This document shows, in pieces, positions 470 to 4,081 of a stretch of DNA of 36,896 bases. Made by a program: the position numbers and the translations under genes. The stretch's first letter is position 1; each line of letters starts with the position of its first letter. The notes below the pieces were generated by a model that worked only from the letters and a program-made list of their open reading frames with translations, ran no database searches and was not told the DNA's origin. Source of the DNA: a virus; the IMG/VR virus record IMGVR_UViG_3300020394_000244, positions 1 through 36,896 of that record, one strand, 5' to 3'.

Positions 470-1129
470 ATGTTTACACATATTGACAAAAAACATGATT
501 TTCCCCAGTTAATGAGGGAGAATTTTGAAGGAAAGAGGACATATGTAACGGAAAATGGTGATAGATACCCTTCTATCACCACCGTTCTTGGATATAAGAT
601 AAAACCCGCCATAAAAGCATGGAGAAAGAAGGTAGGAGAACAGACAGCGAACAAAATATCGCGTCAATCATCTGTTCGGGGAACCAAAATTCACGGTGTT
701 TGTGAGGATTATCTTAATAATAAGGAACTTGATACTGAAATGTTGTCCTTTGTAGAGGAAGATATGTTCGATAACATGCGCCTCTACCTTGATAAGATAG
801 ATAATATACACGCGATTGAACAATTTTTGTACAGCGACCACCTAAGACTCGCTGGACAGGCGGATTGTATCGCTGAGTTTGAGGGAAAATTGTCTATTAT
901 TGACTTTAAGACCTCTGCTAAACCAAAAACCAAGTCATATATAAAGAACTATTTTGCTCAATGTGCTGGTTATGCCATCATGTTTGAGGAAAGAACAGGA
1001 ATACCCATTACAAATTCAGTAATTATCATTGGTGTAGCGAATGAAGAACCACAATTATTCATAGAACATCGTGATAATTACACAGAATATCTGCTAGAAT
1101 GTCGAGATTTGTACGAAAATAACGCTTGA
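470..1129 (+). CDS. PD-(D/E)XK nuclease, RecB/Cas4/MGME1-like
   Basis: A 219-residue protein with the layout of a PD-(D/E)XK exonuclease. Visible motifs are a conserved His in RGTKIHG (H75), GQAD (D132), the IIDFKTS motif with D145 and K147, and a following YFAQCAGYA segment corresponding to motif IV (Q164). This pattern is typical of phage single-strand-acting exonucleases related to RecB C-terminal, Cas4 and MGME1 domains. I see no cysteine cluster that would indicate a Cas4 iron-sulfur site. It probably acts in recombination, replication fork processing or host DNA degradation. It has its own consensus promoter, the only gene between phoH and the tmRNA, and a weak ribosome-binding site (AGGA about 9 bases before ATG). 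The exact substrate cannot be read from sequence. Confidence 0.8.
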   Translation: MFTHIDKKHDFPQLMRENFEGKRTYVTENGDRYPSITTVLGYKIKPAIKAWRKKVGEQTANKISRQSSVRGTKIHGVCEDYLNNKELDTEMLSFVEEDMFDNMRLYLDKIDNIHAIEQFLYSDHLRLAGQADCIAEFEGKLSIIDFKTSAKPKTKSYIKNYFAQCAGYAIMFEERTGIPITNSVIIIGVANEEPQLFIEHRDNYTEYLLECRDLYENNA

Positions 1130-1154
1130 CTTTTGGCCTGTGATTTGGTATTAT
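1126..1154 (+). promoter_or_regulatory. sigma70-type promoter of the tmRNA gene
   Basis: TTGACT (1126-1131), a 17-base spacer and TATTAT (1149-1154) form a near-consensus housekeeping promoter. The -35 box overlaps the stop codon of the nuclease gene. Predicted start is near 1161, just upstream of the acceptor piece of the tmRNA. The same region also contains TATAAATA (1152-1159), the T4 late promoter sequence, so the RNA could be made both early and late. Confidence 0.8.
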
Positions 1155-1159
1155 AAATA
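1152..1159 (+). promoter_or_regulatory. T4-type late promoter TATAAATA overlapping the tmRNA -10 box
   Basis: Exact TATAAATA. It overlaps the sigma70 -10 hexamer of the tmRNA promoter by three bases. If used by gp55/gp33-modified polymerase, transcription would start about six bases after it (near 1165), still upstream of the tmRNA acceptor piece. Confidence 0.5.
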
Positions 1160-1160
1160 A

Positions 1161-1426
1161 ATTAACTCGATGAAACAAATTGAACGGTTAACAGGACGGG
1201 GGTGCAAATCCCCCCGCCTCCACCAATCAATCCTTATAGACTCGACTAAGGGGGCGAATAGGATCGACTGGAACTTATTAGGGGAGTGGAGAGTTCGGTG
1301 TCGGAGCTACCGTAAGTGCGACAAAACTATAAACGCAGAAGATAATACTGCTTATGAGGGATACGCTTTAGCGGCGTAGTCTGCTCGGGGTTCGGGGACG
1401 CCTATCAACAGAAGTCCCCATTTTTA
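1161..1426 (+). ncRNA. ssrA: circularly permuted (two-piece) tmRNA
   Basis: tmRNA rescues stalled ribosomes: an Ala-charged tRNA-like end plus a short tag reading frame. The 3' acceptor piece comes first: GGAC, a T arm GGGGG-TGCAAAT-CCCCC (around 1198-1214), then CGCCTCC (1215-1221), A and encoded CCA (1223-1225). After a 24-base spacer (1226-1249) the coding piece starts with GGGGGCG (1250-1256), which pairs with CGCCTCC in seven pairs, including the G3-U wobble that is the alanine identity element. A D-loop-like GGATCGACTGG follows. An H-type pseudoknot (CGGT 1296-1299 with ACCG 1309-1312; GTCG 1300-1303 with CGAC 1319-1322) ends 12 bases before the resume codon GCA (1335). The tag is AEDNTAYEGYALAA, stop TAG at 1377-1379. 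The tag resembles alphaproteobacterial tags. The 5' limit of the acceptor piece and helix P2 were not resolved; outer limits are approximate. Confidence 0.92.
1394..1426 (+). terminator. hairpin plus T-run ending the tmRNA
   Basis: GGGGAC (1394-1399) pairs with GTCCCC (1414-1419) around a 14-base loop and is followed by ATTTTTAT. It may be the terminal stem of the tmRNA coding piece, a rho-independent terminator, or both. The loop is long for a terminator. Confidence 0.5.
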
Positions 1427-1449: not shown

Positions 1450-1560
1450 ATGTGGTTAATTACAGGACTTATTATCGGAGTCGTAGTTGGAGCATGGATT
1501 AAAGACCGAAAATCTTGGTTAGATTTTCTTGACACTACATTTGACAAGCTGCCGTTTTAA
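1450..1560 (+). CDS. small single-span membrane peptide (36 residues)
   Basis: A short open frame starts at ATG 1450 behind a strong Shine-Dalgarno (AGGAGGAAG about 3-11 bases upstream) and ends at TAA 1558-1560. It begins MWLITGLIIGVVVGAWIKDR: a hydrophobic stretch of about 16 residues followed by charged residues, then a soluble tail ending DKLPF. It is a plausible inner-membrane peptide. It sits 17 bases before a SleB-type cell-wall hydrolase, so a role in lysis (small holin or lysis regulator) is possible, but nothing in the sequence proves this; holins with one span exist but are usually longer. The quality of the ribosome-binding site and the clean membrane segment are the reasons for calling it a gene. 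Confidence 0.65.
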   Translation: MWLITGLIIGVVVGAWIKDRKSWLDFLDTTFDKLPF

Positions 1561-1577
1561 CAAACTAACACTTTCAA

Positions 1578-2129
1578 ATGTACAGTTGGTTTTTAACCGC
1601 CGTGGTTGCAGTGTCATTATGTATGATTCCTGTACCCGCCTCGGACTATATAATTGAAGACAGGGATATCCGCCATTATGACCCAGTAAAGGTCATTGAT
1701 AAACAGGAAATTGCTTGTCTTGCAGTTAACATTTATCATGAAGCAAGGGGCGAAAGCAAAGATGGACAAATCGCAGTTGCTTTCGTAACCTTGAATCGTG
1801 TTAAAAATAACTCATATCCAGACACAATTTGTGGTGTTGTTTATCAAGGATACCACAAACCGTCTTGGAGAGATGAAACAAAGATGGTTCCAATCAGGCA
1901 CCGTTGCCAATTTAGTTGGTACTGTGATGGTAAACCCGACATGGTACTAGATTTCGACATATACGAAGAAATCATAGAATTGGCAATTGATGTAATGGTT
2001 AATAGATACGAAGATAATACAGAGGGAAGTTTGTTTTATCACGCGGATTATGTGGAACCACACTGGGCGCAACACATGGCGAAAACAGTAAAGATAGATA
2101 ATCATATTTTTTATACCGCGAGTTATTGA
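1578..2129 (+). CDS. SleB-type cell-wall hydrolase, probable endolysin
   Basis: A 183-residue protein with the Hydrolase_2/SleB fold signature: EIACLAVNIYHEARGES (catalytic Glu likely E55), VAFVTLNRV, ICGVVYQ and the QFSWYCDG motif. SleB-type enzymes cleave peptidoglycan glycan strands as lytic transglycosylases. The N terminus (residues 3-20, WFLTAVVAVSLCMIPVPA) is a hydrophobic segment followed by small residues, which looks like a signal peptide or signal-arrest-release anchor, so export could be holin independent. The catalytic domain fills residues ~44-180. It has no obvious Shine-Dalgarno. As the gp5 homologue in this window lacks the T4 lysozyme domain, this is the only recognisable murein hydrolase here. 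Its TGA overlaps the ATG of the epimerase gene. Confidence 0.82.
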   Translation: MYSWFLTAVVAVSLCMIPVPASDYIIEDRDIRHYDPVKVIDKQEIACLAVNIYHEARGESKDGQIAVAFVTLNRVKNNSYPDTICGVVYQGYHKPSWRDETKMVPIRHRCQFSWYCDGKPDMVLDFDIYEEIIELAIDVMVNRYEDNTEGSLFYHADYVEPHWAQHMAKTVKIDNHIFYTASY

Positions 2130-3898: not shown

Positions 3899-4081
3899 AT
3901 GAGTAGGAAACTACGCCCTCAAGAAGATGAGAAGCGTATGCGGAGAGTACCTAGTGAAGATAAGACTAGGCTTGACAAATACAAACATCTCGTGTATAAT
4001 GAGGAAATGTATGAGTCTGAAGAGTTCTTGGACGATTTAGACAAAAAAAGTAAAATACAACGCAAACATAAACCAATATAA
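3899..4081 (+). CDS. small highly charged protein between genes 59 and 32
   Basis: 60 residues starting MSRKLRPQEDEKRMRRVPSE, rich in Lys, Arg, Glu and Asp, with no hydrophobic segment and no recognisable motif. I choose ATG 3899 rather than the GTG at 3890 because TAGGAG (3885-3890) is spaced eight bases from the ATG. It lies between the helicase loader and the single-strand binding protein in a replication and transcription cluster, so a small accessory role there is plausible, but I do not recognise the family. The gene contains an exact consensus sigma70 promoter (3972-4000) that reads into gene 32, so part of its sequence is under regulatory constraint. Confidence 0.6.
   Translation: MSRKLRPQEDEKRMRRVPSEDKTRLDKYKHLVYNEEMYESEEFLDDLDKKSKIQRKHKPI
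3972..4000 (+). promoter_or_regulatory. sigma70-type promoter, exact consensus, for gene 32
   Basis: TTGACA (3972-3977), 17-base spacer, TATAAT (3995-4000). It lies inside the small upstream gene; transcription would start near 4007, about 90 bases before gp32. It gives gene 32 an independent early promoter. Confidence 0.8.

Follow-up and report, generated by a model that had tools for sequence, protein, structure and literature searches.

The window analysed here is an entire 36.9-kb IMG/VR virus record (GC content 37.7%) and encodes PhoH, a PD-(D/E)XK nuclease, a SleB-type endolysin, a sugar epimerase, a gp33-like late coactivator, gp59, gp32, and a radical SAM protein. Judged by these genes, it is a fragment of a marine T4-like myophage; in a gp32 comparison, the isolates closest to it are Melnitz (OM43) and HTVC008M (SAR11). 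Between the nuclease and the endolysin lies a circularly permuted tmRNA gene of the alphaproteobacterial type (Table 1). Bacterial contamination of the contig is ruled out, as the flanks are T4-like phage genes.

Table 1. Features of the tmRNA locus in the window, and the spacer ORF of Melnitz
Feature	Position	Strand	Remarks
PD-(D/E)XK nuclease	470-1129
Promoter	1126-1159	+	sigma70-like, overlaps T4-type late box
-35 TTGACT	1126-1131	+	followed by 17-nt spacer
-10 TATTAT	1149-1154	+	preceded by TG
T4-type late box TATAAATA	1152-1159	+	exact; three-base overlap with -10
tmRNA gene	1164-1422	+	circularly permuted, alphaproteobacterial type
Acceptor piece, tRNA-like 3' half	1164-1225	+	RF04321 and RF01849 matches; precedes coding piece
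Distal P2 strand AACTC	1164-1168	+	in acceptor piece
Proximal P2 strands	1187-1189, 1192-1194	+	in acceptor piece
T arm	1198-1214	+	T stem 1198-1202/1210-1214
Acceptor 3' strand	1215-1221	+	seven pairs with 1250-1256
A, then encoded CCA	1222, 1223-1225	+	end of acceptor piece
Spacer, 24 nt	1226-1249	+	no ORF; between CCA and G1 of coding piece
Coding piece	1250-1422	+	5' part 1250-1334
Acceptor 5' strand GGGGGCG	1250-1256	+	G3 opposite U70
P2 strands of coding piece	1268-1274, 1291-1295	+
Candidate H-type pseudoknot	1296-1322	+	ends 12 nt before GCA
Pseudoknot stem 1	1296-1299/1309-1312	+
Pseudoknot stem 2	1300-1303/1319-1322	+	can pair in window; not conserved in nearest relatives
Tag reading frame	1335-1379	+	resume codon GCA at 1335; tag AEDNTAYEGYALAA; stop TAG
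3' hairpin GGGGAC/GTCCCC	1394-1399/1414-1419 (element 1394-1425)	+	loop CCTATCAACAGAA, then ATTTTT
36-aa hydrophobic ORF MWLITGLIIGVVVGAWIKDRKSWLDFLDTTFDKLPF	1450-1560	+	Shine-Dalgarno present; next gene downstream, not part of tmRNA
SleB-type cell wall hydrolase (endolysin)	1578-2129	+	PF07486, E 4.7e-25; syntenic neighbour of tmRNA
Melnitz spacer ORF	L124:7096-7200		inside SsrA; unannotated in Melnitz isolates

In cmscan searches against Rfam, the gene scored well above the curated cut-offs of both RF04321 tmRNA_permuted (105.4 bits, E 9.4e-20, span 1164-1379; cut-off 47) and RF01849 alpha_tmRNA (94.4 bits, E 1.2e-24, span 1122-1422; cut-off 50). The beta and cyano models stayed below theirs (40.7 vs. 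84 bits and 26.7 vs. 70 bits, respectively), and the tmRNA is of the alpha type, not beta or cyano. The E-values and the covariation described below rule out a chance match. An earlier sequence-only reading had proposed a phage-borne circularly permuted tmRNA and suggested searching with the Rfam models; the two scores, the T4-like flanks, and permuted tmRNAs in relatives confirm this identification, and the acceptor piece, CCA, G3-U pair, T arm, pseudoknot potential, GCA codon, and tag that it named could all be located. In contrast, ARAGORN reported no tmRNA in the window. It detected most close relatives and was also blind to the tmRNAs of contigs L085, L089, L091, and L094, the last of which carries the same tmRNA gene as the window; some of the detected relatives have the same T loop as the missed tmRNAs. 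With strong covariance model matches and several relatives also missed, the ARAGORN result was rejected as proof of absence.

The tRNA-like domain is fully represented in the window by a 7-bp acceptor stem, the G3-U70 pair, a T arm with the loop TGCAAAT, and CCA, and the gene as a whole is complete, unlike a relic. By analogy with known two-piece tmRNAs, the spacer between the pieces is predicted to be cut out of the precursor. The tag frame opens at the resume codon without an AUG, runs from GCA to GCTTTAGCGGCGTAG, and has a hydrophobic AA end. The alpha_tmRNA match extends to 1422, into the region of the 3' hairpin, which has the CAACAGAA loop that characterizes alpha-type permuted tmRNAs; this hairpin marks the 3' end of the RNA and may act as a terminator. 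The small ORF downstream has the same start behind the tmRNA in close relatives and no match in Pfam or PHROG; it possibly encodes a lysis-related small membrane protein.

A blastn search of the tmRNA gene against 50,697 phage records found no match, and relatives were therefore taken from IMG/VR, where viral contigs were gathered both via the neighbouring endolysin and via DNA patterns. Seventeen of the 34 contigs picked solely for their endolysin contain a permuted tmRNA, in 13 cases 0.2-0.65 kb upstream of the endolysin gene and on the same strand. As half of these hydrolase-selected contigs, many of them short fragments, have no detected tmRNA, the gene may be non-essential to the group. 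The pattern searches yielded a set of 227 genes, part of which was selected for long spacers; no more than 169 of them had a parsable tag. The G3-U70 pair was partly imposed on these relatives by the search patterns, but not on the window.

Across 16 distinct phage genes, both-side changes affect 17 of the 31 pairs of the window structure, compared with 9.1 in shuffles and 5-9 in slid versions of the structure, and 53 cells compared with 16.1 in shuffles. The T stem and the acceptor stem are 100% paired in these genes, with both-side changes in three of five and one of seven pairs, respectively, and the P2 helices are 84-88% paired, with such changes in eight of 11 pairs; in L391, for example, AACUC/GAGUU has become AACGC/GCGUU. 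Within the 227-gene set, whose proportions are not population frequencies because it was chosen by patterns, a C-G to U-A replacement in the acceptor stem is seen equally often on either strand (39 and 39), and the tag ends in LAA, IAA, or VAA in 162 of the 169 parsed relatives, YALAA being most frequent. Furthermore, 78 distinct 3'-hairpin stems enclose one conserved loop in 150 phage genes. The sequence-only reading had made its case depend on conserved pairing in related phages, and the pairs indeed covary far beyond both the shuffled and the slid controls.

The pseudoknot before the tag is less well supported. Two 4-bp stems are possible in the window, a result equalled by 10% of shuffles in a single-sequence energy test, and stem 2 is paired in just 43% of the cells among the 16 distinct genes. 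Four close relatives, L002, L003, L083, and L085, yielded no good pseudoknot and, from their sequences, seem to have lost stem 2 and retained all else. Thus, the H-type pseudoknot proposed earlier 12 bases before GCA stands as a potential fold, but the phages nearest to the window do not preserve its second stem.

Conservation also supports the claim that the tmRNA has its own promoter. In isolation, the TTGACT-N17-TATTAT match does not stand out from many chance matches in a scan and is not significant. Upstream of related phage tmRNAs, however, 67 of 148 dereplicated regions contain a sigma70 motif (0.9 in shuffles), and 91 contain TATAAATA (3.6 in shuffles), the late-promoter box known from T4-like phages. 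The late box lies mostly at the -10 position in these regions. In the Melnitz study, the late-promoter box is given as TATAAAT (PMC9004378). The conserved sigma70 -35 and -10 elements with an overlapping late box suggest both early and late transcription of the phage tmRNA, and relatives lacking the motif may be transcribed from upstream genes. This fused sigma70/late-box promoter, conserved before phage tmRNAs, is new here. The window also contains two perfect (12/12) sigma70 promoters of the form TTGACA-N17-TATAAT, at 413-441 upstream of the PD-(D/E)XK nuclease and at 3972-4000 upstream of gp32. Together, the conserved pairing, promoter, and tag indicate that the tmRNA gene is kept by selection and is not a recent passenger.

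Permuted tmRNA genes in phages have already been published, and the window adds one well-supported marine case. A 2022 study described a two-piece tmRNA in Melnitz, proposed both rescue and tagging roles, and found 53 two-piece tmRNAs in phage genomes with ARAGORN, 50 of them marine or aquatic (PMC9004378); a tmRNA database holds 79 phage sequences, and the merged model RF04321 is described with it (PMC11915505). Since ARAGORN misses the window and related contigs, counts based on it are probably low, and the published number of two-piece phage tmRNAs is likely an underestimate, the subgroup of the window being partly invisible to this program. Melnitz (MZ577097.1; PMC9004378) is, like the window, a T4-like marine myophage whose permuted tmRNA is of the alpha type, and it has the same neighbourhood (PhoH, PD-(D/E)XK nuclease, tmRNA, gp33-like coactivator, gp59, and gp32) and the same kind of promoter (TTGACA-N17-TATAAATA). 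It differs in its T loop (GGCAGTA vs. TGCAAAT), its tag (ANDNYVPVDYALAA vs. AEDNTAYEGYALAA), and its spacer, which is 142 nt long with a conserved ORF instead of 24 nt and empty; its authors also report a glutamine riboswitch (PMC9004378), whereas the window has no riboswitch match in Rfam. One-piece phage tmRNAs are likewise phage-carried but not permuted, and the tRNA-like fragment of mycobacteriophage DS6A (PMC4131195) is neither permuted nor equipped with a tag frame.

Compared to host genes, the phage tmRNA is of the same type yet distant. SAR11 (Pelagibacterales) tmRNAs, present in eight of 10 sampled genomes, incomplete ones included, score 209-232 bits with the alpha_tmRNA model vs. 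94 for the window. They share with it the permuted order, G3-U70, CCA, the YALAA tag end, and the CAACAGAA 3' loop, but their tag is ANESYALAA instead of AEDNTAYEGYALAA, and the T loop GGCAGTA common to SAR11 and Melnitz is absent from the window. The comparison with host tmRNAs advised by the sequence-only reading thus revealed a shared 3' loop and a shared end of otherwise different tags; in general, phage tags are mostly 14 aa long and differ from the SAR11 tag, with the degron end retained. Matches of the phage gene to 385 alphaproteobacterial genomes by blastn were found in only nine, over ~32-39 nt. Recent capture from a host was rejected on the basis of these short motifs, and the gene, although of the alpha type, has long diverged from hosts. 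The alphaproteobacteria-like tag had also been taken to point to the host. The tmRNA is indeed of the alpha type, but so is that of Melnitz, whose host OM43 is a gammaproteobacterium (PMC9004378); as this type is no proof of an alphaproteobacterial host, assigning a host from the tag was rejected as unsafe.

In many relatives of the window tmRNA, an ORF preceded by a Shine-Dalgarno sequence of its own lies in the spacer between the two pieces. Of 153 spacers that are at least 90 nt long, 26 have a closed ORF of 22 aa or more that begins within the first 45 nt, vs. 0.5 in shuffled spacers; if ORFs ending just inside the coding piece are included, 65 of 161 spacers of at least 60 nt have one. 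These shuffles and the codon-position patterns rule out chance ORFs: variable columns at codon positions 1/2/3 number 9/8/21 in the Melnitz family (MFKWLSKTRLVVITRDYFRERNRKADAKIPKYLSG in Melnitz itself; pairwise dN/dS mostly 0.1-0.4), 10/3/34 in the MDSK, 9/6/27 in the MISK, 7/2/12 in the MFDR, and 10/6/24 in the MDEV family. The spacer proteins thus appear to form several unrelated families, with purifying selection indicated in those tested. Of ten tested, only the MISK family had a Pfam match, to DUF6356 (E 5e-12), and none of the ten matched PHROGs. All 15 spacer-ORF loci checked are permuted tmRNAs by covariance model; spacer ORFs were noted in L124 (Melnitz), L018, L080, L391, L398, L411, L406, L432, L435, L507, L513, L529, L533, L537, and L541. 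Some spacer ORFs, in L398, L411, L440, and L513, end in MGAK* or AGAK*; their reading frames continue into the acceptor strand GGGGGCGAA, and the conserved TAG of the tmRNA serves as their stop codon. No such spacer ORFs were seen in 18 parsable alphaproteobacterial host spacers, some of them long, and a search among open-licence papers found no reports of protein genes in tmRNA spacers. In the permuted tmRNA genes of marine phages, the spacer is thus quite probably a slot for small protein genes, each with a ribosome-binding site of its own; various unrelated genes occupy it in different phages, and in the window it is empty. A single transcript would then give rise to a small mRNA in addition to the tmRNA. 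The spacer-encoded small proteins, which lie outside the window, are new here.

With a probability of roughly 70%, this marine T4-like phage has a complete gene for a two-piece tmRNA that serves supplementary ribosome rescue while mRNA is broken during infection. The sequences directly show an anatomy like that of a functional two-piece tmRNA, covariation, a conserved promoter motif, and retention throughout the clade. A single precursor would be transcribed by the host sigma70 RNA polymerase and, via the TATAAATA box, by the late polymerase of the phage. The CCA and G1 ends would then be freed by tRNA-processing enzymes of the host, with loss of the 24-nt spacer, and the acceptor stem and P2 would hold the two pieces together. 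Charged by the host alanyl-tRNA synthetase via G3-U70, the tmRNA would enter, with host SmpB, ribosomes stalled on broken mRNA; addition of the tag ending AEDNTAYEGYALAA would send the protein to host proteases and free the ribosome. The most likely benefit to the phage is that rescue capacity stays high while infection breaks mRNA, although hosts have a tmRNA of their own, as the SAR11 genomes show, which counts against this reading. The sequence-only reading had suggested that the virus supplies its own ribosome rescue or tagging and that smpB be sought elsewhere in the genome. This remains the best interpretation, but it would require host SmpB: searches for smpB (PF01668) that recovered their positive controls gave no match in the window or in 29 records of related phages with a tmRNA, most of the records being fragments (the longest 161 kb).

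The main rival to supplementary rescue, though an improbable one, is that tagging is the principal use, the phage tag steering which truncated proteins are degraded, for example to gain amino acids from recycled host proteins, an idea put forward for Melnitz. The Melnitz study proposed that host proteins are selectively tagged (PMC9004378), and the mostly 14-aa phage tags are unlike the SAR11 tag; their degron end, however, is identical to that of the hosts, there is no sign of substrate choice, and routing to the same proteases is expected. Considerably less probable is a decoy that titrates SmpB and thereby inhibits host trans-translation. Such an effect is reported for the tag-less tRNA-like domain of DS6A, a phage precedent (PMC4131195, PMC11915505), and no SmpB of the phage's own was found, but the clade-wide retention of a tag frame complete with resume codon, stop, and LAA-type end would be superfluous in a decoy. 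Least probable of all is a captured host gene drifting without function, to which the relatives with no detected tmRNA and the eroded pseudoknot stem 2 might point, as the compensatory pair changes, the promoter and tag conserved across strongly diverged phages, and the lack of a close match in 385 host genomes speak against it.

The tmRNAs of marine phages gain a well-supported member here, in a gene retained by selection. The conserved early-plus-late promoter provides a testable prediction on the timing of its expression, and the spacer genes can be tested directly in cultured Melnitz. If confirmed, they would represent a previously unreported means by which phages fit protein genes into an RNA gene.
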